A DNA stretch of 46,577 nucleotides. Source: Halioglobus sp. (GTDB taxonomy: Bacteria > Pseudomonadota > Gammaproteobacteria > Pseudomonadales > Halieaceae). Position numbers and translations under genes: made by a program. Location of the stretch: assembly GCA_020443425.1 (NCBI GenBank), contig JAGRIE010000025.1, positions 1 through 46,577 on the forward strand. The letters are read 5' to 3'. The notes beneath the pieces were generated by a model. The model did not search any database. It was not told where the DNA came from and saw only the letters and a list, made by a program, of their open reading frames with translations. Positions 10,422 through 46,577 of this stretch are shown one piece after another; position 1 is the first letter of the stretch, and the number at the start of each line of letters is the position of its first letter.

Positions 10422-12448
10422 GCGACCGCCGGCGATATACGTGGCTTGCGCGCGGGGTTTGCAGCCTCCTCGCCCTGCTGCATGTCTCTCTCGTGGCGGC
10501 GCAGTCGCCGGCCACGCCACCACATTACCTCGTTGGTCGTGGCATGACCGATATCACGGGGCCCGCTGTGGGGGTGCAGCTATGGGGTTTCGGTCGCCCT
10601 GACCAGATTGATGAGGGGCTTCATATGCGCCAGCGCTCGCGTGCATTTGTCATCGCTGAGGCAGATGACCCCGGTGCACGCCTCGTCTATGTCAGTGCGG
10701 AACTGGGCAGTATTGATCACCACATCACACTGGATGTTGTAGAGCGCTTACAAAAGCAGTTCGGGAAAATCTACAGCCTCGACAACGTTATTATCACGGC
10801 TACCCATACGCATTCCGGCCCCGGTGGTTACTGGCAGTCGCGAACACAGACCGGACTGGATGGCGGCCTCTACCCGCAACACTATGAAGCGATTGTCAGC
10901 GGCATCACGGCCTCTGTCGTGAAGGCGCACAGCGATATGCAGCCGGGCAATATCTTCATCAGTACCGGCCGGGTTACCGATGCCGGGGTGAATCGTTCGG
11001 CTGTGGCGTATCTCGAAAATCCTGCCGAGGAGCGGGCGCGTTACAGTGAAAACACCAATACCGCCATGACCGTGCTGAAGTTTGTTGATTTCTCAGGCCC
11101 AATCGGCATGCTCAGTTGGTATGCACTGCATCCCACAGCGATGAATTTTTACAATCTGCTGATATCCGGTGATCACAAGGGGTACGCCTCGCTCCGCATG
11201 GAGCAGCAGCACGGTGCCACCTATGCCTCGGACGAGGACTTTGTCGCGGCGTTCGCGCAGTCTGATCCCGGCGATGTAACGCCGAACACCAATCTCGATA
11301 ATACCGGGCCCGGAGCGACGGATGTCGAGACCACGCGTATCATGGGGGAGCGACAACTAGAGGTGGCGCGGCAGTTGTTTGCAGCGGCTAGCGAAGAGCT
11401 GTCCGGCCCGATTGCTGTGCGACGTGTGTACGTCGACTTCACGCGTTTCCCTGTTCAGTCCCGCTACACCGGAGCGGGTCAACAGTATACCTGTCCTTCG
11501 GCTTACGGCTATTCTTTTGCCGGCGGGTCGACTGAGGATGGCGGTGGCCACTTCCTGTTCCGGGAGGGGATGACAGAGCAGCGCGTGTGGTTGGACTGGT
11601 TGATTCGCCTGGTGACCGGCGCTCCCCGCTGGACGGAATCAGTAAAGGCATGCCAGGCGCCGAAGCCGATTCTGTTTGAAACGGGAAGTGGCTCGCCGCC
11701 ATTGCAGTCGCAGATACATTCCGTCACCGTGGCGCGTATTGGCCAACTCGTTATTCTTGCCCTGCCGGTGGAAGTGACTACGATGGCCGGCAGGCGTTTG
11801 CGTGACAGCGTGATGGATGAACTCGGTGACTGGGCCCGGCACATTGAGCTGGCCGGCTACGCGAACGGGTACGCAGGCTATGTCACCACGCCGCAGGAGT
11901 ACCAGTTGCAACAGTACGAGGGCGGCCACACGCTTCACGGTCAGTGGAGCCTCCCTGCATACCAGCAGGTCGCGGCCGGGTTGGCCCGTGCGCTGGAGTC
12001 GAACGCAGGGGTGGGGACTGAGGTGCGCTACGATGACTGGCGCGGCAGATCGGCGGGCATGCCGCTGCCGGTTGGCAGCGAGGCAAGCCTTCCCGAAGGC
12101 AGGGACTTCGGCGACGCGCTGCCGCTGGAGAGAACACGCTACGGCAAAGGCGATACCGTGCTCACGGAGTTTTGGTCCAGCAATCCCACCGCGCATTACA
12201 CCACTGGAGGCAACTTTATGCTGGTCGAGCGGCGCACACGCTCCGGCTGGCATGTCATCGCTGATGATGGTGATTGGAGCACACGCGTGCGCTGGCGAGA
12301 GGAGGGCGATGCCTACATTGCGCAGCTCAGCTGGGAAATTCCCGGCGGTACGCGCGCGGGCGATTACCGCATCACGCACCTGGGATTTGACAGGGGCGGG
12401 GCGCCGTTCAGCGGCACCTCCGGTATTTTTCGCTACGGTAAGCCCTGA
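10418..12448 (+). CDS. Neutral/alkaline non-lysosomal ceramidase, secreted
   Basis: This 676-aa protein would hydrolyse ceramide N-acyl bonds. It begins with an Arg-rich n-region and a Sec signal peptide (WLARGVCSLLALLHVSLVAA, cleavage near residue 31). The mature start GRGMTDITGPAVGVQLWGF is typical of the ceramidase N-domain. Zinc-site sequence ITATHTHSGPGGYWQ and the catalytic-serine region NRSAVAYLENP (DAGVNRS) are both present, as is a C-terminal Ig-like ceramidase domain (from about residue 520). The start is TTG 10418, overlapping the psiE stop by the pattern TTGA. It is likely periplasmic or secreted. Ceramide is unusual in gammaproteobacteria, so environmental sphingolipid is the likelier substrate. 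Confidence 0.93.
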   Translation: MSDRRRYTWLARGVCSLLALLHVSLVAAQSPATPPHYLVGRGMTDITGPAVGVQLWGFGRPDQIDEGLHMRQRSRAFVIAEADDPGARLVYVSAELGSIDHHITLDVVERLQKQFGKIYSLDNVIITATHTHSGPGGYWQSRTQTGLDGGLYPQHYEAIVSGITASVVKAHSDMQPGNIFISTGRVTDAGVNRSAVAYLENPAEERARYSENTNTAMTVLKFVDFSGPIGMLSWYALHPTAMNFYNLLISGDHKGYASLRMEQQHGATYASDEDFVAAFAQSDPGDVTPNTNLDNTGPGATDVETTRIMGERQLEVARQLFAAASEELSGPIAVRRVYVDFTRFPVQSRYTGAGQQYTCPSAYGYSFAGGSTEDGGGHFLFREGMTEQRVWLDWLIRLVTGAPRWTESVKACQAPKPILFETGSGSPPLQSQIHSVTVARIGQLVILALPVEVTTMAGRRLRDSVMDELGDWARHIELAGYANGYAGYVTTPQEYQLQQYEGGHTLHGQWSLPAYQQVAAGLARALESNAGVGTEVRYDDWRGRSAGMPLPVGSEASLPEGRDFGDALPLERTRYGKGDTVLTEFWSSNPTAHYTTGGNFMLVERRTRSGWHVIADDGDWSTRVRWREEGDAYIAQLSWEIPGGTRAGDYRITHLGFDRGGAPFSGTSGIFRYGKP

Positions 12449-32504: not shown

Positions 32505-34823
32505 TCAGTGCGCGTTCAACTCGGCAATCTGCGCCTTGAAATACCCCGGTTCAAGCAGGGTCTTGAGTTCATCGAAGGGTACCGGTTTACTGAACAGGTA
32601 ACCCTGGATCACGCTGGCGCCATTGTTGCGCAGGAAATGGTACTGCTCCCGGGTTTCCACGCCCTCGGCAACGAGTTTAAGTCGCAGGCTGCGCGCCATG
32701 GCGATAATGGCAGTGACCAGGCTGGCGTCGTTCTGGCTCTTGTCGAAATCAATAACAAAACTGCGATCTATCTTCAGTTCGTCCAGTGGGAAGCGGCTGA
32801 GATAGCTCAGTGAGGAGTATCCGGTGCCGAAATCATCGATGGACAGCTGGACACCCAGTTCCTTTAGATGGGTCAGCGCGCGCATCGTCGTCGCCGTGTC
32901 GTCCATCATAATACCCTCGGTCAGCTCCAGTTGCAGACGCATCGGGCGCAGCCCCGTGGTCGCCAGCACTTCTGACACGCGGTCAATAAAGTTCTGGTTG
33001 AACTGCAGTGCCGACACATTGACGGACACCTTGGGCAGTTCCAGGTTCAGCGCCTGCAGTTCCACCATCTGGCGGCAGGCCTGTTCCAGGCCCCATTCCC
33101 CCAGCGCCCCGATCAACCCCATCTCCTCCGCCAGTGGGATGAACTTGAACGGTGGTACCATGCCGCGTTCAGGGTGAGCCCAGCGCATCAGTGCTTCCGC
33201 GCCAGTGACTGTGCCGGTCAGGGTGTCCACTTGTGCCTGGTAGTGGAGTTCCAGTTGCCCGGTTTCCAGTGCCCTGCGCAGTTCGTTCTCCAGTTCGAGC
33301 CGCTCCACGCCAGCGGCGTCCATGTCGCTGTTGTAGAACATGAATTTATTTTTGCCAGAGGACTTCGCGTGGTACATCGCGGTGTCGGCTGCCTTCAGCA
33401 GGCCCTCGACAGTGTCAGCCTCGCCCTGGGCGATAGCGATCCCGATACTGGGGGTGACAACGAGGTCGTGCCCCTCTATTTTGATCGGCTGTGCGAGTAC
33501 ATCGAGCAGGCGCTGCGCAACCATGCCAGCTGAATCGGCGGTGTCGAGTTGGTTGAGAACAACAGTGAACTCGTCGCCGCCCAGCCGCGATACGTCGATT
33601 TGCGAGTTGGCCTCCACATAGTGGGCAATCAGGTCGCTGTCCCGGACGCACCAGGCGAGCCGTTTTGCCACCTCGCGCAACAGCAGGTCGCCGGAGCTGT
33701 GCCCCAGCGAGTCGTTGATACGCTTGAAATTGTCCAGATCCAGGAACAACAGCGCCAGCAATTCCTTGTTGCGCCTCGCCAGGCGCAACAGCAGGTCCAG
33801 CTGCTCGGTGAACAGGCGGCGATTGGGCAGGCCGGTGAGGCTGTCATAGTACGCCAGCTTGCGCAGCCGGTCCTTGGTCTCCGTGACCTCCCTGACGGCG
33901 CGACTCAACTCCTCGTTGCGCCTTGATAATTGTGAGGTGCGCTCTTCCACCTTCATGCTCAGCAACTGGTGATCGACATCCATCCGTGTCTTATAGGTAT
34001 GCAGGCCTCCAATGATGGTGTTGAGCAGCACGGCGATTTCCTTGAATTCACCGCTTTTCTCGAGCCCGAGTGGCTGCACGGCGACGCCTGAAGAGATGTC
34101 GTCGGCCATGCGCTTGATGATGGAGAAGGGCACCGTGATCCTGCGTGCGATAAGCCTGCTGAAGACACTGCAGAGCAGAATAAACAGCATGGAGATTGCC
34201 AGTATCGCCAGCATGGACGGGAGGATTTGCTGGATCACCAGTGAGCGGCTGATGCCCAGTTGCACGTAGCCGACCACGTACAGGCTGGTGGCGCTGCGGG
34301 AACTGGCCAGTGCCGCCCCCAGTGCCTCGCGATCAATATTCTCATTCAGGGGGTTGACCACAGACAGCACCGGGATGGTCAGGTCCCAGACCAGTCCTGT
34401 TGCGGGCAGGGCGGGAGTGGCTGTGGTGCCCGCCCCCGCGAAGGGGTTCGGGTTGGAAGTGAAACTTGTCTCCAGCACGGATGTGCTGCCGCGCGCCTGG
34501 TCGAAAGAGGCCGGTTCAAGCGCCGGGGTATCGCGGCGCTGGACGCGGTTCAACTCACGCCCCGTCTGGCCGCGTGCCACTGCGTATACAATCGCCGGGG
34601 AGGAGGAGAGGAGGTCTTCCAGCGTCGCCTGCAGCTCCCGGGTGTCATTCAGATAGATCGCAATCTGCAGTTGCGGCTGGCTTTGCACAAGGTTGATGGA
34701 CTGTTCGATCAGCCGGTCACGGCTGGAGAAATACTCGCTCAGCGATACCGTCGCGGTGAGTATGCAGCCGGCCACCACGGCAATGGAAATGACCAGGGCG
34801 TTGATTTTTCCCGCTATTGTCAT
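32505..34823 (-). CDS. Membrane-bound GGDEF/EAL c-di-GMP signalling protein
   Basis: This 772-aa protein has an N-terminal TM helix (about residues 9-28), a periplasmic sensor-type region to about 195, and a second TM near 200-220. A HAMP domain and coiled segment follow, then GGDEF (RLGGDEFTVVLNQLD, about residue 414) and EAL (AEALMRWAHPERG, about 541). Both catalytic signatures are intact, including DDFGTGYSSLSYL and the KIDRSFV loop of EAL. No RxxD product-inhibition site precedes GGDEF at the usual place. The protein may make and/or degrade c-di-GMP in response to an envelope signal. It sits close to the exopolysaccharide genes, which c-di-GMP often controls; this link is inference. Confidence 0.93.
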   Translation of the reverse strand: MTIAGKINALVISIAVVAGCILTATVSLSEYFSSRDRLIEQSINLVQSQPQLQIAIYLNDTRELQATLEDLLSSSPAIVYAVARGQTGRELNRVQRRDTPALEPASFDQARGSTSVLETSFTSNPNPFAGAGTTATPALPATGLVWDLTIPVLSVVNPLNENIDREALGAALASSRSATSLYVVGYVQLGISRSLVIQQILPSMLAILAISMLFILLCSVFSRLIARRITVPFSIIKRMADDISSGVAVQPLGLEKSGEFKEIAVLLNTIIGGLHTYKTRMDVDHQLLSMKVEERTSQLSRRNEELSRAVREVTETKDRLRKLAYYDSLTGLPNRRLFTEQLDLLLRLARRNKELLALLFLDLDNFKRINDSLGHSSGDLLLREVAKRLAWCVRDSDLIAHYVEANSQIDVSRLGGDEFTVVLNQLDTADSAGMVAQRLLDVLAQPIKIEGHDLVVTPSIGIAIAQGEADTVEGLLKAADTAMYHAKSSGKNKFMFYNSDMDAAGVERLELENELRRALETGQLELHYQAQVDTLTGTVTGAEALMRWAHPERGMVPPFKFIPLAEEMGLIGALGEWGLEQACRQMVELQALNLELPKVSVNVSALQFNQNFIDRVSEVLATTGLRPMRLQLELTEGIMMDDTATTMRALTHLKELGVQLSIDDFGTGYSSLSYLSRFPLDELKIDRSFVIDFDKSQNDASLVTAIIAMARSLRLKLVAEGVETREQYHFLRNNGASVIQGYLFSKPVPFDELKTLLEPGYFKAQIAELNAH

Positions 34824-35544: not shown

Positions 35545-36957
35545 CTATCGGGCCCCTTTGCCAAACAGTACCACCTCCACGGTGCTGAGTGTGATCATCA
35601 GGTCCAGGAACAGGCTCTGGTTTTTCACATAATAGAGATCAAACTGGAGTTTCTGGCGCGCGTCTTCCTCCGAGGCGCCGTACGGGTAGCACAGTTGGGC
35701 CCAACCGGTAATGCCGGGTTTCACCGCGTGCCGTGAATTGTAAAAGGGAATCTTTTCGGCCAGCTGTTTGACAAATTCGGGGCGCTCCGGACGCGGGCCG
35801 ATGAAGGCCATCTCCCCGGACAGTACATTGAAGATTTGTGGCAGTTCATCGATACGGGTGCGCCGGATAAACGCGCCGACCCGTGTCACACGGCTGTCGT
35901 TGAGTGTCGCCCAGCGCGCTTTGCCGTCACCTTCCGCGTCGATGCTCATGCTGCGGAACTTGAGGACCTGGAAGGCCTTGCCGTTGAGTCCAACCCGCTG
36001 CTGGCTGAAAAAAATCGGCGCCTTGAAGCCGTCTTCAATCCAGATAGCCAGCGCTGTCACCAGCATAATCGGCCAGGTGGACATCAGCAGGATAAAACTG
36101 GCGCAGATGTCGAAGCTGCGCTTGGTCAGGCTGCTGGGTGCGTCACTGCGCAAGTCTTCTGTCAGCGTCATCCAGCCCGGGGTGGCGAAATCCACCAGGA
36201 TCTTGCCCGCCTCGCGCTCGAAGAAGTTCACGAGGTTCATGACTTTGATACCCTGCAGGCGGCATTTGAACAGCTCGTCAGTGGGCATCTGGTCCCGTTT
36301 GTGGTCCAGCGCGACGACGATCTGGTCAATTTCTGTCTGTTTCGCGTACTCCGCCAGCGGCTGGCGCAGGTTGATGATGCGCTCGCCGTTCACTTTGGGG
36401 TTTTCATCGTCCACGCGGACGAAGCCGACGATGGTAAACCCCTGCCGATCGGTCTTGCGGCGCATGGAACTGGTGATCGTGGCGGCGGCAGAGCCGGAAC
36501 CGTAAACCAGCACCCGGCTCTTGAACTGCTCCAGGTCTGTCAGGTTGATGAACACAATGCGGCTGATGAGGTTGGTGCTAAAGGAGAGCAGCACTGCGTA
36601 CAGCAGTATGCTGCGCCACTGGTCGACGTCCGGGAGCAGGGTAAATACGCCCGCTGTGAACAGGCTGGCAGTTCCGAAACCGCCCAGGGTGCGAAGCAGT
36701 ATGCCGGATCTGCCCTCGCGCATACGCGGCTCGTACAGGCCCATGGCAAACAGGCACAGCACCGTGATGACGGCGTAGATGAGGGCGCGATTGGGTATCT
36801 CCTGGACCATGGACTGGAAGCTGCCGGGTTGCGCGCCGACCAGGCTGTAAATGTAGGTGCCGGCGTAAAGGGCCAGCACGAACAGCGCGGCATCTACGAG
36901 GGCGAGCCAATAAAACGATGTATGTACGTGGTGGTTGAATACCCTGACCGTAGCCAT
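35545..36957 (-). CDS. Polyprenyl-phosphate sugar-1-phosphate transferase, XrtA/PEP-CTERM-associated type
   Basis: This 470-aa protein has four N-terminal hydrophobic helices (residues 15-140), a CoA-binding-like domain (SRVLVYGSGSAAATI) and a fifth TM near residue 278. The C-terminal catalytic bacterial sugar transferase domain has KRSFDICASFILL, FFSQQRVGLNGKAFQVLKFRSM and RRTRIDELPQIFNVLSGEMAFIGPRPERP. FFEREAGKI is typical of the TIGR03013-type subfamily tied to exosortase-A loci. It starts exopolysaccharide synthesis by loading a sugar phosphate onto undecaprenyl phosphate. AGGACAGGGG precedes the ATG. The neighbouring ligase/decarboxylase pair supports the assignment. Confidence 0.9.
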   Translation of the reverse strand: MATVRVFNHHVHTSFYWLALVDAALFVLALYAGTYIYSLVGAQPGSFQSMVQEIPNRALIYAVITVLCLFAMGLYEPRMREGRSGILLRTLGGFGTASLFTAGVFTLLPDVDQWRSILLYAVLLSFSTNLISRIVFINLTDLEQFKSRVLVYGSGSAAATITSSMRRKTDRQGFTIVGFVRVDDENPKVNGERIINLRQPLAEYAKQTEIDQIVVALDHKRDQMPTDELFKCRLQGIKVMNLVNFFEREAGKILVDFATPGWMTLTEDLRSDAPSSLTKRSFDICASFILLMSTWPIMLVTALAIWIEDGFKAPIFFSQQRVGLNGKAFQVLKFRSMSIDAEGDGKARWATLNDSRVTRVGAFIRRTRIDELPQIFNVLSGEMAFIGPRPERPEFVKQLAEKIPFYNSRHAVKPGITGWAQLCYPYGASEEDARQKLQFDLYYVKNQSLFLDLMITLSTVEVVLFGKGAR

Positions 36958-37363: not shown

Positions 37364-38614
37364 TCAGACCAGCACCTCTCCCGGTGGCGGGTGGCTCAGG
37401 AAACCGACCGGGCTGGCACTGAGGCCGTAGGCGCCGGACTGGAACACGACAACCAGGTCCCCCGGCTCTGCGGTGGGCAGGGTGACCCGGTGTCCGAGTA
37501 TATCCAGCGGGGTGCAGAGCGGGCCCACCACGTTGACCTCCTCGGTCGTGTCGCCGGCAACCCGATTGCCCAGGCACAGCGGGTAGTTTTTGCGAATGAC
37601 CTGGCCGAAGTTGCCGGATGCGGCCAGGTGATGGTGCAGGCCGCCATTGGTGACCAGGAATGTCTCACCCCGAGACACTTTCTTGTCCACCACCTCGCAG
37701 ACATAGATGCCCGCTTCTGCGACCAGGTAACGCCCCAGTTCCATCACGATTTCTGCCTCGGGCAGGCGCGCTGCGGCGGTTTCGACCAGTTCGGCAAGGT
37801 TGGCGGCGATCGGGGCCAGGTCGAGATGGCGCTCACCCGGGAAGTAGGGAACACCCAGCCCGCCCCCGATATTCAACCAGCGTATCGGCGCTGGCGCTGA
37901 CTGGCTGAGGTGATAGGCGAGTTCGAAGGTTTTACGCTGGGCTTCGATAATGGCCTGTGGGCGCAAGTTCTGCGAGCCGCTGAAAATGTGCAGGCCGACG
38001 AACTCCAGTGGCAGCGATGCCAGTGACTGCATCATGGCCGGCACCTGCTCTGCGTCGACGCCGAAGGGCTTGGGACCGCTGCCCATTTTCATGCCAGCCG
38101 CCTTCAGCTCGAAATCGGGGTTGACGCGAATTGCCACCGGTGGGCGCTTGCCGCAGCGTTCGGCTAGCAGGGCGATGCGCTCCATCTCGCGCCGGGACTC
38201 CATATTGATAATCACGCCGCTGGCCACGGCCAACTCGAGGTCTTCCGTGGATTTTCCCGGTCCCGCAAAACTGATGTTGGCCGGGGCGGTGCCGGTCTCG
38301 AGCGCGACGCGCAGTTCGCCCGCGGAGGCGACGTCAAGGCCATCGGTGATTGCGGCCAGGTGCTGCACGACGTCCGGCATCGGATTGGCCTTCATCGCGT
38401 AATGCAGGTGCAGGCGCGGCGGCATTGCCTCGCGCAGCGCAGTGACGCGGGCGTCCATAACGGTGCGGTCGTAGGCGTAGAATGGGGTTCTGCCCACGGC
38501 GCTGGCGAGGGCCGACAGTGACCGTCCGCCGATGTGCAGGCTGTTGTCGATCACTTCGAACTGCTGCATTACCGCGTGCTCTGGCACTTTGGCGGGGCTT
38601 GGGATGTCGCTCAT
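37364..38614 (-). CDS. PLP-dependent decarboxylase, exosortase-A-system associated (TIGR03099 type)
   Basis: This 416-aa fold-type III decarboxylase belongs to the diaminopimelate/ornithine type. The PLP lysine is in HLHYAMKANPMPDV (about residues 74-87). VGLHIFSGSQN and the Gly loop NIGGGLGVPYF bind the phosphate. The active-site Cys is in GPLCTPLDIL, and the C-terminal FQSGAYGLSASPVGFLSHPPP is present. It would decarboxylate an amino acid to an amine. The ATG overlaps the stop of the acyl-CoA ligase gene (ATGA), so the two are translationally coupled. That pairing is the known exosortase-A accessory arrangement. The amino-acid substrate is not known. Confidence 0.92.
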   Translation of the reverse strand: MSDIPSPAKVPEHAVMQQFEVIDNSLHIGGRSLSALASAVGRTPFYAYDRTVMDARVTALREAMPPRLHLHYAMKANPMPDVVQHLAAITDGLDVASAGELRVALETGTAPANISFAGPGKSTEDLELAVASGVIINMESRREMERIALLAERCGKRPPVAIRVNPDFELKAAGMKMGSGPKPFGVDAEQVPAMMQSLASLPLEFVGLHIFSGSQNLRPQAIIEAQRKTFELAYHLSQSAPAPIRWLNIGGGLGVPYFPGERHLDLAPIAANLAELVETAAARLPEAEIVMELGRYLVAEAGIYVCEVVDKKVSRGETFLVTNGGLHHHLAASGNFGQVIRKNYPLCLGNRVAGDTTEEVNVVGPLCTPLDILGHRVTLPTAEPGDLVVVFQSGAYGLSASPVGFLSHPPPGEVLV

Positions 38615-40218
38615 GCGGGAGTGGCCTGAAATAGATTTTGGTACTCTTCAGACAGCGCGCGCCGATCAATTTTGCCATTCTGGTTATGCGGCAGGGCGCT
38701 GCGGGACACGATTATAGCGGGTACCATGAAATTGGGTAGTTCCCGGCGACAGTGGGCCATCACCGCCTCTTCCAGGGGCTGGCCAGCGCTCGCGTCTGGG
38801 CGCGGGGTGACGACCAGCAGGATGGCCTGTCCCAGTGCGGCATGGCGCAGGCCCAGCGCCGCCGCTGCCGCGACGAGGCCGGACGCATAGGCGCTCTCCT
38901 CGACCTCTGTCGGGCTGACGCGGTAGCCGGAGGTCTTGATCATTTCGTCCTTGCGGCTGATGAAATAGAGGTAGCCTTCCTCATCTTTCATCACCTGGTC
39001 GCCCGACCAGACGGCCAGTTCGGTGTTGGGTATCTCCGGTGGCTGTGTGGGGCAGGGCTTGAAGCGTTCGGCGGTTTTCTCCGGATCGTTCCAGTAGCCC
39101 AGGCTCACCAGCGCCCCGCGGTGCACCAGTTCTCCCGGTTCCCCCGGGCCACACTCCCGGCCGTCTTCATTGATAACCAGTATCTCGGCGTTCGGGATTG
39201 CTTTGCCCATTGAATCCGGGCGCACCGCGACCTGGTCCGGTGGCAGGTAGGTGGAGCGGAACGACTCCGTGAGGCCGTACATCAGGAAAATCTGTGTCTG
39301 CGGCAGGGCCTGTTGTAAAGCCCGGGTAGTGGGCACCGGCATGGCGCCCCCGGTGTTCGTGATATAGCGCAGTGACGCGACAGCGGCGGCGGGCCACTGC
39401 AGATCCTTGAGTTGGTTCCATAGCGGCGGCACAGCGGCGAGGCCGGTTATGCCGTAGCGCGCCACAGCGCGGATTACGTCGCGTGGTAGCAGGTAGTCCA
39501 TCAGCACGGCAGCGGCGCCGACCGAAAACGCCGTGGTCAGCTGGCTGAGACCGGCGTCGAAACTCAAAGGCAGGACTGCCAGTATGCGATCTTCAGGTAC
39601 GTTGCCCAGGTAGCTGGCTACACTGCGGGCGCCGGCGACCATATTGCGGTGAGACAGTACCACTCCCTTCGGGTTGCCGGTGCTGCCCGAGGTATAGAGT
39701 ATGGCAGTCATGTCAGTATCGATACGGCGGTGCGGGGCGGGGGCGGCATCGCCCGCAGCGCGGCCAAATTCCGTGAAGCTCAGCAGTCGCTGGGGCAGGT
39801 CGCGGAGGCTCGCCGGTATCTGCTCCTCGACGATAACGATGGTGTGAAGGTCCGGGCAGTGCCTGACCACTTCTGACAGCATTTCCAGCCGCGTGCTTGA
39901 TGTGATCAGCACCCTGACATTGCAATGGGGCAGTATGTGCGCCAGCTGGCGCGGTTTCAGCAGCGGGTTTACCGGTACAAAGCAGGCCCCTGCCGCTGCC
40001 GCACCGAACAGCCCGATGACGGTTTCCGGTTGTTTGGGCAGGTAAACTGCCACCCGTTCCCCGGGACCGACCCCCAACCCGAGTAGCGCACCGGCGACGG
40101 TCTCGATCTGCCGCTGCAGTTCTGAGTAGCTCAGGCACTGGTCTTTGAACAGCAGTGCGGGCGCATCGGGTGTGACCTGCGCGCTGCGGCCGATAAACTG
40201 GTGTATCAGGTCTGGCAT
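38611..40218 (-). CDS. AMP-forming acyl-CoA ligase, exosortase-A-system associated (TIGR03098 type)
   Basis: This 535-aa member of the ANL superfamily has the P-loop AILYTSGSTGNPKGVVLSH (about residues 169-187) and the aromatic/ATP motif MYGLTESFRSTYLP. The adenylate-binding GDQVMKDEEGYLYFISRKDE and hinge are present, as is the C-terminal lysine motif HNQNGKIDRR. It activates a carboxylic acid as an acyl-adenylate and transfers it to a thiol or carrier. I placed the start at ATG 40218 (MPDLIHQFIGRSAQ), where the family begins; frame extends to 40332 without similarity. The Shine-Dalgarno is weak. It is transcribed divergently from the S1 protease. Confidence 0.92.
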   Translation of the reverse strand: MPDLIHQFIGRSAQVTPDAPALLFKDQCLSYSELQRQIETVAGALLGLGVGPGERVAVYLPKQPETVIGLFGAAAAGACFVPVNPLLKPRQLAHILPHCNVRVLITSSTRLEMLSEVVRHCPDLHTIVIVEEQIPASLRDLPQRLLSFTEFGRAAGDAAPAPHRRIDTDMTAILYTSGSTGNPKGVVLSHRNMVAGARSVASYLGNVPEDRILAVLPLSFDAGLSQLTTAFSVGAAAVLMDYLLPRDVIRAVARYGITGLAAVPPLWNQLKDLQWPAAAVASLRYITNTGGAMPVPTTRALQQALPQTQIFLMYGLTESFRSTYLPPDQVAVRPDSMGKAIPNAEILVINEDGRECGPGEPGELVHRGALVSLGYWNDPEKTAERFKPCPTQPPEIPNTELAVWSGDQVMKDEEGYLYFISRKDEMIKTSGYRVSPTEVEESAYASGLVAAAAALGLRHAALGQAILLVVTPRPDASAGQPLEEAVMAHCRRELPNFMVPAIIVSRSALPHNQNGKIDRRALSEEYQNLFQATPA

Positions 40219-40373
40219 TGTCGTGGGGGTAATGGGCTGTGGCTCGTCGGGGAAGGATGATAGTGTAGCCTCTCTGCAATGACGAGGCTCAGCCCGGATT
40301 GTGCGATGAATCCTGGGCGGGGACAATGGCAATAATGGTTAACTGTGAGTAATTGCACATGAAAGGACGCCCG

Positions 40374-41153
40374 GTGTCGCTTCGAATATATGCCCTGATT
40401 TGCCTGCTACTGGCCTCTTCCGGTGTCGCGGCGGGCCTGCCCGAGCTGATCGACAAGATCAGGCCGGGCGTGGTCGGCGTGGGTACGTCCTACCCGCCGC
40501 GGCAGCCGAATGTGAAGGGCGACCGGGTGGTCTATCTGGCGACGGGGTTCGTGGTGGGTGACGGGCGACATATCATCACCAATGCCCATGTCACTGGATT
40601 AACGCTCGATTCCGAGAACAACCAGACGCTGGCGGTGTTCAGTGGCCGCGGGGTGCAGGCCACTGCCCACCCCGCCACGATAGTGCGCAAGGATGAAGAG
40701 CACGATCTCGTGTTGCTGCAAATCCAGGGGTCGAAGCTGCCGGCGTTGCAACTGGGTGACTCGAACGCGGTGAGGGAGGGGCAGGATATCGCCTTTACCG
40801 GGTTTCCGCTGGGCATGGCACTGGGGCTCTACCCGGTCACCCATCGCGGCACAGTCTCGGCTATTGCGCCGGCCGCACCACCCTCGGCGCACTCGGATAA
40901 ACTCAATTCGGTAAAGATCAAACGCATGCGCAGTGGCTTTGAGGCCTTCCAACTCGACGCCACAGCCTACCCGGGAAACAGCGGCAGCCCGGTATTTGAG
41001 CTGACTGGCGGCCGCGTGATCGGGGTCGTCAACAGTGTTGTGGTGAAGGAGACCCGCGAGACCATGCTGGCCCGGCCATCCGGCATCACATACGCCATCC
41101 CGGCGAAATACATCCAGCCCCTGCTCGATGGGGTGGTGTCACCCGCGCGGTGA
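40374..41153 (+). CDS. Secreted S1C-type (DegP-like, no PDZ) serine protease
   Basis: This 259-aa protein has a Sec signal peptide (SLRIYALICLLLASSGVAAG, cleavage near residue 20) and one trypsin-like domain. His is in HIITNAHV, Asp in EEHDLVLLQI and the nucleophile Ser in TAYPGNSGSPVFEL. There is no PDZ domain. The start decision rests on the RBS: GTG 40374 lies six bases after AAAGGA and gives a normal signal peptide. ATG 40359 or TTG 40353 would give an atypical leader. It is presumably periplasmic. It lies inside the exosortase-A accessory cluster, divergent from the ligase, suggesting envelope or exopolysaccharide-related processing; that role is inference. Confidence 0.88.
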   Translation: MSLRIYALICLLLASSGVAAGLPELIDKIRPGVVGVGTSYPPRQPNVKGDRVVYLATGFVVGDGRHIITNAHVTGLTLDSENNQTLAVFSGRGVQATAHPATIVRKDEEHDLVLLQIQGSKLPALQLGDSNAVREGQDIAFTGFPLGMALGLYPVTHRGTVSAIAPAAPPSAHSDKLNSVKIKRMRSGFEAFQLDATAYPGNSGSPVFELTGGRVIGVVNSVVVKETRETMLARPSGITYAIPAKYIQPLLDGVVSPAR

Positions 41154-41277
41154 TTGGCCATTGCCGCCCCGTCCTGCAGCCATGCAGTCACCGCCTGTAG
41201 CCAAATTCTGGTAGCATGTGCGGCGAATTGTCGAGCGGCGATCCGTTTCGCGCGCCGTTCTCCCCGGAGGCTTTTGC

Positions 41278-41769
41278 TTGACCCTGTTTCGACGCAAGAC
41301 CCGCGTGCTGCTTGTCTGTACCGAAAATATCTGTCGCTCACCGATGGCGGAAGGCCTGCTGCGGCATCACTTGCAGCAATCACCGCTGCGCGGCAGCGTG
41401 GAGGTCGGTTCGGCGGGCACCCGGTGCTCGATGCCGGGGTGTCGGCCGGACCAGAGGGCGCAGAGAGTCGCCGCGCTGCGCGGTATCGATTTGTCCGGGA
41501 TAAAGGCGCGCCGCGTGACAGAGCGCGATATGCAGCGCAGTGATTTTATTTTTGCGATGGATGACGCCAATATGCGTGATCTCCTGCAGTTGTGTCCGCA
41601 GGAGCAGCACGGCAAGATCTCCTATTTACTGAGCCACCATCGGCAACAGAGCCTGATCGAGGTCCCCGACCCGTATTTCGGCAGTGCCGAGGGCTTTGCG
41701 CGGGTTTACCAGATAATAGATGACGCCATGGGTGACCTGATTTTGTATTTGCAGAGCAGGATTGGGTGA
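41278..41769 (+). CDS. Low-molecular-weight protein-tyrosine phosphatase (Wzb-like)
   Basis: This 163-aa protein has the P-loop VCTENICRSPMAE (CX5R, about residues 14-21) and the general-acid Asp in VPDPYFGS near residue 127. Enzymes of this type dephosphorylate Wzc-like tyrosine kinases that control exopolysaccharide export. The start is TTG 41278, seven bases after GGAGG (41266-41270); frame upstream to 41218 has no family similarity. It lies 124 bases after the protease gene and 99 before the acyltransferase. The partner kinase is not in the window. Confidence 0.92.
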   Translation: MTLFRRKTRVLLVCTENICRSPMAEGLLRHHLQQSPLRGSVEVGSAGTRCSMPGCRPDQRAQRVAALRGIDLSGIKARRVTERDMQRSDFIFAMDDANMRDLLQLCPQEQHGKISYLLSHHRQQSLIEVPDPYFGSAEGFARVYQIIDDAMGDLILYLQSRIG

Positions 41770-41868: not shown

Positions 41869-42702
41869 ATGGATAAAAAGAACACGTCCCTGGTTGAGGA
41901 ATTTCAGCGGTACTTCACGATTGAGCAGGCGCTCACGCAGGAGCAGCTGAACAGTGTGTACCGGGTTCGCTACAGAGTCTACTGCGAGGAGTTCCAGTAT
42001 GAACCCGCAGACGCCTGTCCCAACCAACTGGAGACGGACGAGTTCGATGTTCACTCCAGGCACTGTGTCGTGGTGCACAAAGCCACCGGTATGCCGGCGG
42101 GCTGTGCGCGGCTGGTGTTGGCAGATGAGCAGCGCTTGATGCCGATGGAGCGCCATTGTGCCAGTGCGATTGATCAGCAGCTCCTGCGCTCTTTTGACGG
42201 CCGCCGTGACACAGTCTGTGAGTTCTCGCGGCTGGGGGTGGACGGTGCATTTCGCCGGCGTCCGGGAGAGCGGGAGTCGCGTTTTGGCGAAATCTCCGCG
42301 CTGGAGTTCAGCTCCCGCGAACAGCGCACCTTCCCGCTGGTGGCGATGGCCACGATTCTGTCGGCGTTGGCCCTCAGCGAACTGATTGGGCGACCGCACT
42401 GTTTCGCCATGATGGAACCGTTCCTGCCGCGCCTGCTGAGGCGGTCGGGACTGCTCGCTCGTCCGGCGGGACAGGAGACCGAATACCACGGCATCCGCTC
42501 CCCGTTCTACTGGGAGACGCGTGAGGGTGTGAGTACGCTGGAGCCTGAATTCAAAGAATTCTACGACGCCATACTCGCCGATTTTTCAGTCTCGGCCACC
42601 AGTGAACGACGTGCGGCCAGCACACAGTCCGCTACCCCTGCCAGGGTCCAACCCCGGCGCCGGGGGTGGTCGCCTTTCACACAGGCACTGCTCGCCAACT
42701 AG
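41869..42702 (+). CDS. PEP-CTERM/exosortase-system acyltransferase (GNAT/LuxI-like, TIGR03694 type)
   Basis: This 277-aa protein matches the exosortase-linked N-acyl transferase family. YRVRYRVYCEEFQYEP (about residues 27-42) is the LuxI-like substrate loop, and DEFDVHSRHCVVVHKATGMPAGCARLV and CEFSRLGV are GNAT-core segments. The RSPFYWETREGV strand is in the C-terminal half. LuxI-like family members transfer acyl chains from acyl-ACP or acyl-CoA to an amine. Here it could use the amine made by the neighbouring decarboxylase. The start is ATG 41869 (MDKKNTSLVEEF); there is no strong RBS, and frame upstream to 41788 is unlike the family. Confidence 0.9.
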   Translation: MDKKNTSLVEEFQRYFTIEQALTQEQLNSVYRVRYRVYCEEFQYEPADACPNQLETDEFDVHSRHCVVVHKATGMPAGCARLVLADEQRLMPMERHCASAIDQQLLRSFDGRRDTVCEFSRLGVDGAFRRRPGERESRFGEISALEFSSREQRTFPLVAMATILSALALSELIGRPHCFAMMEPFLPRLLRRSGLLARPAGQETEYHGIRSPFYWETREGVSTLEPEFKEFYDAILADFSVSATSERRAASTQSATPARVQPRRRGWSPFTQALLAN

Positions 42703-42757
42703 GCCCCGGCTGCGCGCTGTCAGCGGCGTAGTGCCCCGCCTTAATTCCGGCGCGCAC

Positions 42758-42786
42758 TTGTTATTGTCACGGGTGCTGCATAAGAT
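42758..42786 (+). promoter_or_regulatory. Candidate sigma-70-type promoter before the ThiF-nitroreductase gene
   Basis: TTGTTA (42758-42763) and TAAGAT (42781-42786) are separated by exactly 17 bases, each matching four of six consensus positions. The ThiF-nitroreductase ATG is 84 bases downstream. This is only a candidate on sequence. Confidence 0.35.
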
Positions 42787-42869
42787 GCAGGTCGACCGGC
42801 CGAATAGACTGCCGCCAACAGGGGGTAGTCTGGCTGTGGAGATCTTAGCAATGGAATTCGAGGCTCTGA

Positions 42870-44840
42870 ATGTCGTTTGATTACCACGAGGCCTTCTCCC
42901 GTAACCTGGGCTGGGTGACCGAAACAGAGCAGGAAATACTGCGCAACAAGCGCATCGCGATCGCGGGAATGGGCGGGGTCGGGGGCAGCCACCTGCTGAC
43001 GCTGACACGGCTCGGCATCGGCCACTTCAATCTCGCAGACTACGACCAGTTTGAGCTCGCCAACTTCAACCGCCAGGCCGGTGCCAGCACCCCCCACCTG
43101 GGGCGCAATAAACTCGAGGTGATGGTGGAACTGGCCCGGGGGATCAACCCGGGGCTCGGTATTGCACAGTTCCCGGCCGGTGTCGATGTCGACAATCTCG
43201 ACACCTTTCTCGAGGGGGTCGATCTGTACGTCGATTCCCTGGATTTCTTCGCGCTTGATATCCGTCGGGCGGTCTTCGCCGCCTGTTACGACAAGGGCAT
43301 CCCCGCTATTACCGCCGCGCCACTGGGTATGGGCGCGGCCGTGCTCTGTTTCTTTCCGGGGCAGATGAGTTTTGAGGAGTATTTCCTGCTCGAAGGTCGC
43401 TCCCGAGAGGAGCAGGCGCTTCGCTTTATGCTGGGCCTGGCACCGAACCCGCAGCAGTTGGCGTATCTGGCCGACGACACCAGGGTGGATTTTGAGGCGG
43501 GCAAGGCGCCGTCAACCCCGATGGCGTGCGAGCTCTGCGCGGGGTTCGCGGGCACTTATGCGCTCAAAATACTGCTCGCCCGCGGCGGCGTGCCCGCGGC
43601 GCCACGCGGCATCCATTTTGACGCCTACCGCAACCGGCTGGTGACTACCTGGCGCCCCTGGGGTAACGCCAACCCGATACAGCAGATCGGCCTCAGGATT
43701 GCACGCAAGCGCCTGAACGCCCGCAAGTTACCCTCGGCTGGCCAGGACGCGACTCCCAGGGCGCGCCCGGTCGAGCGGATTCTGGATCTCGCCCGCTGGG
43801 CGCCCAGTGGCGACAATGACCAGCCGTGGCGGTTCCAAATTGTCGATGATCACCATGTGGTCATTCACGGCCGGGATACGCGCGACTGGTGCGTCTACGA
43901 TCTCGACGGCACCTCAAGCCAGATTGCACTGGGTGCGTTGCTGGAGACGCTGCACATCGCCGCCTCCGCTGAGGGTATGAGGGTGGAGACCTCGCTGCGA
44001 CCGGATTCCCCCGAGGAGGCGCCGCTCATTGATGTCAGGCTGATCGACGACGAGGCGGTGTCCGCCGATGCGCTGCTGCCATTTGTCACGTCCAGGGTGA
44101 CACAGCGCCTGCCCTTCAGTACCCGGGCGCTGTCCGATCACCAGCGCCAGGCGCTGGAGCAGGCGGTGGGTGAGGGCTACAGCGTGCGCTGGATCGATGG
44201 TGCTGCCGGGCGCAGACAGGCGGCTAAACTGCTGTTCCATAACGCCCATATTCGGCTTTCCACCCCGGAGGCATACGAGGTCCACCGGCAGAATATTGAA
44301 TGGGGCGTGCAGTTCAGCGAGCACCACCTTCCCGAAGGCGCACTGGGCCTGGATGCGCCGACACGCAAGATTATGCGCTGGGCCCTGCAGAGCTGGCGGC
44401 GTGTGCGCTTCCTGAACCGTTTTTTTGCCGGCACCTGGCTGCCGCGCCTGCAGATGGATGTGCGCACCGCATTGGGGTGTGCCGCCCATTTTGTCATTGT
44501 CGCCGACAAGCCCCTGCTGACGGTGGAGGATTACCTCGCAGGCGGGCGCGCGGTGCAGCGCTTCTGGTTGCACGCCACGCGCTTGGGGCTGCAGTTCCAG
44601 CCGGAGATGACACCGGTTATTTTCTCCCGCTACATCGCCCAATCGCGCACATTCACCGCGGTCGCAGCGGAGCAGGCACTGGCCGAAAAACTGGCTGCTG
44701 ACCTGAGCGCCCTGGTGGGACCATCAGTGCAACCGTTGCAGCGGCTTTACATGGGACGGGTGGGTTTTGGGCCCGCGCCGCGGTCCCGTTCGGTGCGACC
44801 GCCTCTGGAGTCGCTGCTCACCGATGCGTCCAGCCAATAG
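42870..44840 (+). CDS. ThiF/E1-like adenylyltransferase fused to a nitroreductase domain
   Basis: This is a 656-aa two-domain protein. The N-terminal E1/ThiF/MoeB-like part has the ATP-binding AIAGMGGVGGSHL (GMGGVG at residues 33-38), LADYDQFELANFNRQ with the Asp and Arg of the adenylation site (D59, R68), and a conserved Lys in LGRNK (K81). A MACELCAGFAG segment lies near residues 216-227. The C-terminal half starts near 302 with ERILDLARWAPSGDNDQPWRF, the FMN nitroreductase signature. The E1 part would adenylate a carboxylate; the flavin domain could reduce or dehydrogenate the product. Which substrate is used is unknown. It lies between the acyltransferase and a glycosyltransferase, whose ATG is only three bases after its TAG. 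GAGG precedes the ATG. Confidence 0.85.
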   Translation: MSFDYHEAFSRNLGWVTETEQEILRNKRIAIAGMGGVGGSHLLTLTRLGIGHFNLADYDQFELANFNRQAGASTPHLGRNKLEVMVELARGINPGLGIAQFPAGVDVDNLDTFLEGVDLYVDSLDFFALDIRRAVFAACYDKGIPAITAAPLGMGAAVLCFFPGQMSFEEYFLLEGRSREEQALRFMLGLAPNPQQLAYLADDTRVDFEAGKAPSTPMACELCAGFAGTYALKILLARGGVPAAPRGIHFDAYRNRLVTTWRPWGNANPIQQIGLRIARKRLNARKLPSAGQDATPRARPVERILDLARWAPSGDNDQPWRFQIVDDHHVVIHGRDTRDWCVYDLDGTSSQIALGALLETLHIAASAEGMRVETSLRPDSPEEAPLIDVRLIDDEAVSADALLPFVTSRVTQRLPFSTRALSDHQRQALEQAVGEGYSVRWIDGAAGRRQAAKLLFHNAHIRLSTPEAYEVHRQNIEWGVQFSEHHLPEGALGLDAPTRKIMRWALQSWRRVRFLNRFFAGTWLPRLQMDVRTALGCAAHFVIVADKPLLTVEDYLAGGRAVQRFWLHATRLGLQFQPEMTPVIFSRYIAQSRTFTAVAAEQALAEKLAADLSALVGPSVQPLQRLYMGRVGFGPAPRSRSVRPPLESLLTDASSQ

Positions 44841-44843
44841 CGC

Positions 44844-46085
44844 ATGGCCGGGTCCACGCCGCGGTCGCGCAGGATACGAGTTCTCTTTGTTGCCGAGGCG
44901 GTGACGCTGGCCCATGTGGCGCGCCCGGTGACGCTGGCGCAGGCGCTGGATCCCCAGGAGTTCGAGGTACATCTCGCGCATCATCCGCGCTACCGCGATT
45001 TGCTGGGGCCTCTCGCGCTGGCAGAGCATGACATTCACTCTATCGAGCCGGCACAGTTCCTGGCCGCGCTGGCGGCCGGTAGGCCCGTGTATGACCTGCC
45101 GACGCTGGAAGCCTATGTCGCGGAGGACCTGAGGCTTATCGCCGGGATACAGCCGGATATCATCGTCGGTGATTTCCGCCTGTCGCTGGCGGTGAGTGCA
45201 GAGCTCGCAGGGGTGCCTTATATTGCTCTCAGCAATGCCTACTGGTCGCCGTACTGCCGGCAGCACTACACCGTGCCGGAACTGCCGTTGACGAGGGCGC
45301 TTGGCGTGACTCTCGGGCAGTGGCTGTTCTCGCTCGGCCGTCCCTTCGCATTCGCGCTGCACTGCCTGCCCATGCACCGGCTGCGACGCCGGCATGGCCT
45401 GCCCAGTCTGGGTTTCAACCTGAGGCGTGTATACACCTACGCCAATGTCACGTTGTACGCGGATATACCGGAGTTGTTCGACATGCAACACCTGCCGTCG
45501 CAGCACCGTTTTATCGGCCCCGTGGTGTGGTCGCCGAAAGACCCGCGGCCGGCATGGTGGCCGCACTTCCCGCGGGAGCTGCCCATCGTCTATGTGACAC
45601 TGGGCAGCTCCGGCAATGCCGGTCTGCTGCCCGAGCTGATTGCCGCGCTGGGTGAGCTCAATGTCACTGCACTGGTGTCCAGCGCGGGCACTCCGCTGCC
45701 GCAGCAGGCCCCTGCCAATGTGTACATGGCAGCCTATCTGCCCGGCGAGGAGGTGGTAAAAATGGCCAGCCTGGTGATATGCAATGGCGGCAGTCCGGGT
45801 ACCCACCAGGCCCTGGCACAGGGTGTTCCGGTGATTGGTGTCGCGAATAATCTCGATCAGTACCTGAATATGACCGCTATTGTAAAAGCCGGGGCAGGGC
45901 GCGTACTGAGAGCGGGAACCTGCAACTCTGCTGCCCTGGTGACCGCCATCGGCGCCGTATTGCGCGACGCCTCCTGTCGTGACGCTGCGGCCCGGCTCGC
46001 AGCGCGCCTGGCGGCCTACAGCGCCCGCGAGAGATTCGCAGGCATAATCCGCGACTATTGCGGTGCAGCGGGGCTCGGCAATTAA
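44844..46085 (+). CDS. GT1-family glycosyltransferase (nucleotide-sugar, MGT/UGT-like)
   Basis: This 413-aa GT-B-fold protein has the acceptor domain start RVLFVAEAVTLAHVARPVTL (about residues 11-30) and PDIIVGDFRLSLAVSAELAGVPYIAL. The donor domain has LPIVYVTLGSSGN and then ICNGGSPGTHQALAQGVPVIGVANNLDQ, the GT1 nucleotide-sugar loop with G/N-x-G-x-x-T. A DLPTLE acceptor-domain segment is present. It would glycosylate a lipid or small molecule rather than build a polymer. It probably shares a transcript with the ThiF-nitroreductase gene three bases upstream and may decorate the product of that enzyme. A substrate is not predictable. Confidence 0.88.
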   Translation: MAGSTPRSRRIRVLFVAEAVTLAHVARPVTLAQALDPQEFEVHLAHHPRYRDLLGPLALAEHDIHSIEPAQFLAALAAGRPVYDLPTLEAYVAEDLRLIAGIQPDIIVGDFRLSLAVSAELAGVPYIALSNAYWSPYCRQHYTVPELPLTRALGVTLGQWLFSLGRPFAFALHCLPMHRLRRRHGLPSLGFNLRRVYTYANVTLYADIPELFDMQHLPSQHRFIGPVVWSPKDPRPAWWPHFPRELPIVYVTLGSSGNAGLLPELIAALGELNVTALVSSAGTPLPQQAPANVYMAAYLPGEEVVKMASLVICNGGSPGTHQALAQGVPVIGVANNLDQYLNMTAIVKAGAGRVLRAGTCNSAALVTAIGAVLRDASCRDAAARLAARLAAYSARERFAGIIRDYCGAAGLGN

Positions 46086-46171
46086 CGGCAATCGCTACCA
46101 TGCAGTGGGCCCTGCAGTCGGGGTGCTGGCCCCTGTTCTGGCAGCAGGCGCTTGCCAGCCGTTAGCGGAAA

Positions 46172-46208
46172 TTGGAAAATGTCGATTAATCAATAAGATA
46201 GATATACA
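46172..46208 (+). promoter_or_regulatory. AT-rich probable promoter before the last gene
   Basis: TTGGAA (46172-46177) and TAAGAT (46194-46199) are 16 bases apart, with a second -10-like TATACA at 46203-46208 and a GATTAATC palindrome at 46184-46191. This AT-rich patch stands out from its GC-rich surroundings, 40-75 bases before the ATG at 46247. The boundaries are approximate. Confidence 0.35.
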
Positions 46209-46246
46209 GTCTACACTTTGTGTGCGAACACCCAGGGGGGCGTACC

Positions 46247-46577
46247 ATGCGTAAGATCACAACAGGGCAGATCGGCTTCTTCACTCTACTGCTCACGCTG
46301 GTGGTAATGCTGGCGCTGGCGTCTGCCAGTTTTGTCACCGACAGGGCGTGGCTGGGAGACTTCTACGGCGTCGTCTATGTCATGCTGTTGATAGCATTCG
46401 TGTATCTGTGGGCGTTCGTAATCTACCGGCTCTTTCTGCGCAGCTTCCCTCTGCAGGAGGGCTATATCGAGCCCGGCTCGCGCGCCGAGTTTGCCGCCCA
46501 GGTCAACATCCTGTTTTACCTGATGCTATTCAATACCCTGATACGCACGGAGATACTGCCTGTCCCGCTGAAGACTA
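46247..46577 (+). CDS. N-terminal part of a membrane-associated acyltransferase, probably hexapeptide (LbH) type; truncated
   Basis: The window ends inside this gene after 110 codons. Visible are two N-terminal TM helices (about residues 8-29 and 40-63), then LQEGYIEPGSRAEFAAQ and VNILFYLMLFNTLIRT, then EILPVPLKT. The pattern EG-x-I-x-PGSR-x-EF with a following hydrophobic helix and LPVPL reminds me of N-terminal regions of hexapeptide (LbH) acyltransferases. The catalytic hexapeptide repeats would lie past the window edge, so the family call is inference. A G-rich GGGGGG lies six bases before the ATG. Confidence 0.5.
   Translation, partial: MRKITTGQIGFFTLLLTLVVMLALASASFVTDRAWLGDFYGVVYVMLLIAFVYLWAFVIYRLFLRSFPLQEGYIEPGSRAEFAAQVNILFYLMLFNTLIRTEILPVPLKT

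Follow-up and report, generated by a model that had tools for sequence, protein, structure and literature searches.

A probable oxazolone-lipid pathway with glycosyltransferase and acyltransferase genes in an exosortase-A island of Halioglobus sp.

What do an N-acyltransferase, a ThiF-nitroreductase fusion, a GT1 glycosyltransferase and a hexapeptide acyltransferase make together, and what links them to an exosortase-A locus? The question is raised by a 46,577 nucleotide stretch of Halioglobus sp. (Gammaproteobacteria; Halieaceae; assembly GCA_020443425.1, contig JAGRIE010000025.1, positions 1 to 46,577), hereafter the window. An earlier note, made from the letters of this DNA, described the four genes at 41869..46577 and proposed that their products build, oxidise and glycosylate an acylated amine. 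All four open frames are present and lie on the + strand, and the glycosyltransferase gene does start three bases after the fusion, which ends at 44840. The domain calls are borne out by profile matches to TIGR03694, ThiF, nitroreductase and GT1, and for the hexapeptide protein by its relatives and its own contig. We consider it probable that the four genes form an oxazolone-lipid pathway that resembles OxzAB and is embedded in an exosortase-A island.

The first gene, ACYLTRANSFERASE (41869..42702), has an ATG start and encodes an OxzA-like N-acyl amino acid synthase of 277 residues. The protein scores 199.8 bits against TIGR03694 (exosort_acyl; cut-off 111.95), and also matches Pfam Acetyltransf_5 (59.2 bits, cut-off 22.4) and FeeM (41.5 bits, cut-off 27). 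A search of solved structures with the sequence gave no match. The AlphaFold model (pLDDT 89.8) matched the acyl-homoserine lactone synthases LasI, TofI and BjaI and the structure of FeeM (2G0B) in the PDB; for TyzA, too, FeeM and BjaI are given as relatives (PMC10404671). According to Craig, Cherry and Brady 2011 (as cited in PMC11072679 and PMC9762135), members of TIGR03694 synthesise N-acyl amino acids and have a link to exosortase. The amino acid used by the window enzyme cannot be told from the family.

The second gene (42870..44840, + strand) follows after 167 bases and encodes an OxzB-like predicted oxazolone synthase of 656 residues, a fusion of a ThiF cyclase and a flavin oxidase. In brief, the E1-like adenylating cyclase domain (42897..43652, residues 10-260) scores 131.2 bits against ThiF (cut-off 28.1) and exceeds the cut-off of PRK08223 (NF006077; 417.5 versus 266). 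The flavin-dependent oxidase, or desaturase, domain of the nitroreductase superfamily (43725..44819) scores 28.5 bits against Pfam Nitroreductase (cut-off 23.5) and matches PRK07877/Rv1355c over residues 286-650. The fusion remains below the cut-offs of both PRK14851 (NF011424; 424.3 versus 1170 bits) and PRK14852 (NF011425; 284.9 versus 1337 bits). In the predicted structure (pLDDT 88.8) the first domain matches AclA, ThiF, MoeB, PaaA and MccB, with AclA as the best structural match, and the second domain matches Acg (2YMV, rank 12), to which, among solved structures, the oxidase domain is said to be most closely related (PMC12856293).

We aligned 42 rows, comprising the window protein, 38 fused relatives, one triple fusion and two proteins of the Rv1355c family (TrzS-type). 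The ATP-site residues G33, D57, N67, R68, K81 and D125 of the ThiF domain are invariant in all 42 rows. In the oxidase domain the motif PSGxNxQxW and R462 are likewise found in 42/42 and Q577 in 41/42. The columns of D125, R462 and Q577 hold D199, R524 and Q635 in the protein of M. dioxanotrophicus, and the published variants of TrzS from M. smegmatis are D217A, R540A and Q651A (PMC12856293). The alignment contained the M. dioxanotrophicus and not the M. smegmatis protein, and from the near-constant offsets of 18, 16 and 16 we infer that these are the same residues. The aspartate of the ThiF domain has been shown to be essential in TrzS (PMC12856293).

The fusion has the domain order, the fold and the aligned tested catalytic residues of the oxazolone synthases OxzB and TrzS. 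By its residues and domain order it is predicted to work like TrzS, yet it lies outside the Rv1355c family as filed. We rejected a reading of the protein as an E1-nitroreductase of unknown function, as the family has characterised members. The earlier note had drawn an analogy to azole-forming pathways of ribosomally synthesised and post-translationally modified peptides (RiPPs) and had left the product open as an acylated amine. Neither is needed, since the family has a known function as oxazolone synthase (PMC10404671, PMC12856293) and the acyltransferase belongs to a family of reported N-acyl amino acid synthases. Its guess of an acyl metabolite was right.

The third gene (44844..46085, + strand) encodes a GT1 glycosyltransferase of 413 residues with an EryCIII-like C-terminal domain (56.8 bits, cut-off 31.7). 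At 66.9 bits it remains below the cut-off of 260 for TIGR01426 (MGT, macrolide-type), so the protein is GT1-like but outside that subfamily, and we treat it as a distinct subfamily. H24, the presumed counterpart of OleD's catalytic histidine, is invariant in 20/20 sequences of the subfamily (alignment A1). The donor loop carries CNGGS and reads CNGGSP where CalG1 has HHGGSG; a usual donor-loop histidine is replaced, and the sugar donor may therefore differ.

The fourth gene (46247..46577, + strand) is cut by the window end. The part inside the window encodes the N-terminal portion of a hexapeptide-repeat acyltransferase, which is hydrophobic and probably membrane-spanning. On its own this piece gave no family match. 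It is 80% identical to its counterpart at locus L003 over the shared part, and a full-length relative at L028 matches Pfam Hexapep with 45.8 bits (cut-off 27), which marks it as a hexapeptide protein. The repeats themselves lie outside the window part, in L028 and on the window's own contig of 55,596 bases, where a run of N at the window end is followed by the hexapeptide half of the gene at 46673-47008. Beyond it are genes for PrsT and a short protein that ends in a PEP-CTERM-like tail, labelled by cluster; the tail is our own reading of the sequence, and Pfam gave no match to this protein.

In G310 (L077:5412-8031) a GMC oxidoreductase gene and a short-chain dehydrogenase gene lie between the GT1 and hexapeptide acyltransferase genes, and in G081 of the same genus (L079, from 5277) two unannotated genes of similar length take that place. 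The oxidoreductases of G310 may further oxidise the sugar or the lipid.

OxzAB of Pseudoalteromonas rubra is an oxazolone synthase (de Rond et al. 2021, via PMC10404671 and PMC12856293). In OxzAB, TyzACB and TrzAS an aromatic amino acid is N-acylated, the ring is closed by an ATP-dependent ThiF enzyme and the product is desaturated by an O2-dependent flavin enzyme (PMC12856293, PMC10404671). By homology to such characterised enzymes and conservation of the tested residues, the core of the window cassette most likely produces an N-acyl amino acid, which it then cyclises to an oxazolone and desaturates. The TIGR03694 enzyme would N-acylate an amino acid, probably aromatic, with a fatty acyl group taken from acyl-CoA or acyl-acyl carrier protein. 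The ThiF domain would adenylate the carboxylate with ATP, the amide oxygen would close the five-membered oxazolone, and the flavin domain would desaturate the ring with O2. The order of steps and the substrate may not carry over from TrzAS to the window enzyme. More tentatively, the GT1 may add a sugar to the product, most simply at a tyrosine-derived phenol, and the hexapeptide enzyme may acylate the sugar. Among related compounds, O-methylated stieleriacines and compounds with para-methoxy replacing para-hydroxy are described (PMC12479983). The predicted product is an acyl-oxazolone or acyl-dehydroamino acid that is glycosylated and O-acylated; the final compound may be the ring-opened N-acyl dehydro-amino acid and not the oxazolone. 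More tentatively still, neighbouring MMPL, LolA-like and DUF1302 proteins might export it, and it might serve the exosortase/exopolysaccharide cell surface.

The cassette recurs in part around other fusions. A scan of contigs by likeness to the window fusion gave 65 loci, so that with the window 66 carry the fusion or parts of it; the frequencies are not population estimates. The records L001 and L002 from the window's own genome were excluded from these counts, whereas clustering took in 68 records. Genes were called from open frames in flanks of up to 10 kb, with thresholds of 250 bits for GT1 and 25 bits for the acyltransferase. The earlier note had suggested tabulating the partners of the fusion within 10 kb. 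An acyltransferase relative (52/66) and a GT1 of the window type (26/66) are frequent. The GT1 gene is directly downstream on the same strand in 14 loci and elsewhere in the flank in 12, some on the opposite strand. It overlaps oxzB by one to four bases in five of the 14, which suggests translational coupling. Searching directly with the window fragment located the hexapeptide gene in 13 loci, and clustering gave 15, the window included. The TIGR03098/TIGR03099 pair, also listed in that note, did not hold up as part of the cassette and was rejected, since strong homologues (>500 bits) of the ligase occur in only 8/66 loci and of the decarboxylase in 7/66. Seven of the eight ligase loci fall within the nine-row clade of the window in the cyclase tree, the eighth being Bowmanella (L061). 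We assign the pair to the exosortase-A surroundings of the clade that holds the window, and not to the cassette generally. PrsT is the most frequent other neighbour (30/68 records; family assigned by one representative).

A tree of 63 cyclase domains was built by a quick method and rooted at the midpoint; 14 of its rows lack a GT1 label because of short flanks. GT1-bearing loci occur on both sides of the root, in Halieaceae, Sedimenticola, Ectothiorhodospira, Competibacteraceae, Methyloversatilis, Thauera, Aromatoleum, Azohydromonas and others. The label requires 12 parsimony changes (mean 16.7 for shuffled labels), at least five of them forced by supported branches, and thus the partnership of cyclase and GT1 has repeatedly been lost or gained. 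For exosortase A we checked by hand-picking 18 genomes of named gamma- and betaproteobacteria, from 16 of the 25 non-window GT1 loci and two Massilia loci. Exosortase A was over the cut-off in 16 of them, and L012 and L016 gave only a weaker exosortase match. On a plasmid of Nitratidesulfovibrio vulgaris DP4 a single protein of 989 residues joins a FeeM-type acyltransferase, ThiF and nitroreductase. Its gene lies between XrtA-type exopolysaccharide genes and PEP-CTERM protein genes, and the exosortase of the plasmid is just below the XrtA cut-off (200.1 versus 208 bits).

To escape the bias of the likeness scan, we then consider 369 genomes drawn evenly from the class, with one-sided Fisher tests uncorrected for kinship. 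Curated cut-offs were used for the OxzB cyclase (NF006077), TIGR03694 and exosortase A (TIGR03109); they dropped 9 of 49 (1e-30), 11 of 58 (1e-10) and 40 of 113 matches (1e-10), respectively. For GT1 (E<=1e-50) and the hexapeptide protein (E<=1e-20) the thresholds were our own and weaker matches were unlisted; both models were built from loci adjacent to oxzB and could be tuned to them. The OxzB cyclase was found in 40 genomes, TIGR03694 in 47, exosortase A in 73, the GT1 subfamily in 10 and the hexapeptide subfamily in 11, although in G070 and G200 the hexapeptide match covers only about 60 residues at the edge of a contig. Among the 40 OxzB genomes, 30 have TIGR03694 (p 1e-23) and 36 have exosortase A (p 4e-25). 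OxzB accompanies GT1 in 9/10 genomes (p 8e-9) and the hexapeptide gene in 10/11 (p 8e-10), and all 10 GT1 genomes carry the hexapeptide gene (p 1e-18). Within the 73 exosortase-A genomes, GT1 is present in 9/36 with OxzB and 0/37 without it (p about 0.001). The distance between TIGR03694 and the cyclase is at most 5 kb in 22/40 genomes and at most 10 kb in 26/40, and OxzB and exosortase A lie within 50 kb on one contig in 14/36.

Several variants of the core proteins were noted in these searches. A FeeM protein with a cyclic-nucleotide-binding domain is encoded at L018:19101-20405 (Pfam) and, as assigned by cluster, at L010:8750-9970, L012, L016, L023, L037 and L067. At L010 it is the sole acyltransferase seen and its gene lies 22 bases ahead of oxzB, an arrangement that suggests acylation under cyclic-nucleotide control. 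TIGR03694 matches inside frames of 1379 residues (G061:C1:650390-651091) and 483 residues (G223:C18:29266-29919) are possibly acyltransferase fusions. Cyclase matches run through one stop codon, perhaps a frame end, at G358:C1:1607551-1608414, G134:C1:108522-109382, G124:C1:176427-177287 and G122:C1:1750715-1751572. In several betaproteobacteria the cyclase and the oxidase are two neighbouring genes.

A number of observations weigh against an oxazolone-lipid pathway tied to exosortase. The window enzyme need not use an aromatic amino acid, since N-acyl ornithines and lysines were the products of a neisserial synthase that carries the exosortase-associated annotation (PMC9762135). The fusion scores far under the cut-off of the Rv1355c (TrzS) family NF005901 (190.4 versus 476 bits), and G066 has a cyclase match but no oxidase match. 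The acyltransferase is missing from 14/66 loci; nine of these have less than 3 kb upstream, and L027, L032, L055, L057 and L066 have full flanks. In the survey 10/40 OxzB genomes are without TIGR03694 over the cut-off, and 37/73 exosortase-A genomes and 17/47 TIGR03694 genomes are without OxzB, so the link runs one way. G098 and G360 carry OxzB without an exosortase match. GT1 and cyclase are within 10 kb in only 3/9 genomes (G000, G242, G021). They are on separate contigs in the other six, so that the link is more than adjacency, and of the five of these six genomes from which stretches were taken, four have PrsT beside GT1. G286 (85% complete, 620 contigs) has the GT1, the hexapeptide gene and TIGR03694 with no OxzB-grade and no exosortase match; G036 and G179 of the same family are also without OxzB.

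A serious rival, though one we hold to be on the unlikely side, is that the GT1 and the hexapeptide acyltransferase serve the exopolysaccharide or PEP-CTERM protein branch and that only oxzA and oxzB make the lipid. The island holds many glycan genes. In six stretches PrsT lies next to GT1 without a nearby oxzB, which is on another contig for L075, L077, L079 and L085, the others being L081 and L082 (G286), and five of the six also carry a gene for a PEP-CTERM-type protein (labels by cluster). Against such a division of labour stand the confinement of GT1, among exosortase-A genomes, to those with OxzB, and its position directly behind oxzB in 14 loci, with overlapping ends in some. A somewhat better case, still doubtful in our view, can be made for an N-acyl dehydro-amino acid as the stable end product (compare kyonggic and thalassotalic acids) and the oxazolone as a hydrolysed intermediate, which overlaps with the explanation we prefer. 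In the Massilia loci L034, L036, L042, L052 and L056 these three activities are likewise encoded, with PrsT and exopolysaccharide genes as neighbours, and oxazolones hydrolyse easily (PMC12856293). On the other side, the characterised fused enzymes OxzB and TrzS yield the oxazolone, and its absence elsewhere can be explained by hydrolysis during extraction. That the exosortase association reflects shared ancestry or hitch-hiking in an exopolysaccharide island, without a functional link, seems improbable. It would account for OxzB genomes without exosortase and for the many exosortase-A genomes without OxzB, but exosortase A is in nine tenths of the OxzB genomes against 73/369 overall, and in 22 of the 36 genomes with both the two genes are either widely spaced on a single contig (4) or placed on separate contigs (18). 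The hand-picked gamma- and betaproteobacterial genomes and the Nitratidesulfovibrio triple fusion, itself located in an exopolysaccharide island, speak against it as well.

Two further readings carry little weight. We speculate, with very low confidence, that in exosortase islands the oxazolone is an activated acyl donor instead of an end product and that the N-acyl (dehydro)amino acid is transferred to a GT1-made sugar or to an exosortase surface target, as a lipid anchor or decoration for the PEP-CTERM system. Alcohols and amines readily attack azlactones, and the enzyme pair may therefore prime the N-acyl (dehydro)amino acid for transfer; the anchor of the PEP-CTERM/exosortase system is, to our knowledge, not known. 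Alcoholysis of tryptazolones is described (PMC12856293). Very unlikely is a RiPP- or ubiquitin-like role, with a small carrier protein or a sulfur carrier as the target of activation by the ThiF domain and of oxidation by the flavin domain. The first domain does have ThiF, MoeB, PaaA and MccB among its relatives, but the characterised proteins with both domains act on N-acyl amino acids, and the acyltransferase is often a partner of the fusion and once fused to ThiF-nitroreductase.

The exosortase-A flank of the cassette is real. On the - strand are genes for a TIGR03098 acyl-CoA ligase (38611..40332; 758.6 bits, cut-off 592.35) and a TIGR03099 pyridoxal phosphate-dependent decarboxylase (37364..38614; 608.8 bits, cut-off 478.45), both exosortase A system-associated, and for the XrtA/PEP-CTERM system glycosyltransferase TIGR03013 (EpsB_2; 35545..36957; 537.7 bits, cut-off 393.35). 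Exosortase A itself is encoded on a separate contig of the 222-contig draft (G000:C137:1010-1783; 345.1 bits, cut-off 208). Between this group and the cassette, on the + strand, the Pfam-assigned genes of a trypsin-like peptidase (40353..41153) and a low-molecular-weight protein tyrosine phosphatase (41218..41769) form a conserved flank; their clusters occur in 15/68 records (window counted) and 14/68 records (window and its duplicate L002 counted), respectively.

Behind the window end (L072:6977-15596), the PrsT gene and that of the PEP-CTERM-like protein are followed on the opposite strand by DUF1302, LolA-like and MMPL genes. This trio recurs in L003, L004, L007, L038 and L054 (families by representatives) and is a possible lipid export set. 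The window also encodes a protein (10418-12448) that matches neutral ceramidase with 412.6 bits, below the cut-off of 1200, and is possibly an amide-lipid hydrolase. A GGDEF-EAL protein (32505-34823) is encoded with a RecQ gene on one side and exopolysaccharide genes on the other; genes of cyclic di-GMP metabolism are also described beside trzAS (PMC12856293). There are 3 promoter-like sites against 1.8 in shuffles and 9 terminator-like sites against 4.0.

The core chemistry is known already, and the new part is its coupling to the GT1/hexapeptide pair and to an exosortase island. The earlier note had also placed the interest in the gene set and not in the fusion, and we agree. We found no tie of oxazolone synthases or of the GT1 pair to exosortase in the openly licensed literature that was searched, which leaves Craig 2011 and de Rond 2021 outside its scope; the absence is one from the searched literature and not from print. 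The sole co-mention of exosortase and oxazolone there concerned the oxazolone of methanobactin. For oxazolone lipids the enzymes are known and the physiological role is described as unsettled (PMC12856293). Of the exosortase system, in turn, the genes are known. The genome link of oxazolone synthase with exosortase (36/40), together with the GT1/acyltransferase pair (9/10 in cyclase genomes), offers both fields a testable hypothesis, namely a glycosylated oxazolone or acyl-dehydroamino acid at an exopolysaccharide cell surface. Named cultured hosts exist, among them Methyloversatilis thermotolerans (L039), which has oxzB, GT1 and the hexapeptide gene, and Ectothiorhodospira lacustris (L029).

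With OxzAB the window shares an N-acyltransferase gene and a ThiF-nitroreductase fusion, OxzB of P. rubra being known to us from its published description. The window genes are followed by a GT1 and a hexapeptide acyltransferase gene and lie in an exosortase-A island, which may set them apart from those of P. rubra. The three activities of the window cassette are also those of the mycobacterial TrzAS (Rv1356c/Rv1355c) and TyzACB, for which no exosortase is described (PMC12856293, PMC10404671). The window fusion is approximately 25% identical to the two TrzS-type proteins. The NasY-ThiF-nitroreductase clusters for kyonggic acid, thalassotalic acid and stieleriacine also combine the three activities, in their case for N-acyl dehydrotyrosines, and the word exosortase is absent from the text of PMC12479983. 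Tailoring in those clusters is by methylation (PMC12479983), whereas glycosylation and acylation are predicted here. The TIGR03694 synthases of Craig, Cherry and Brady 2011 form a family whose cut-off the window gene passes, and they share its common linkage to exosortase. PRK08223, PRK14851 and PRK14852 are all filed as hypothetical protein in NCBIfam. A triple-fusion protein of PRK14852 length carries FeeM, ThiF and nitroreductase domains in one chain, whereas in the window the acyltransferase is a separate gene.

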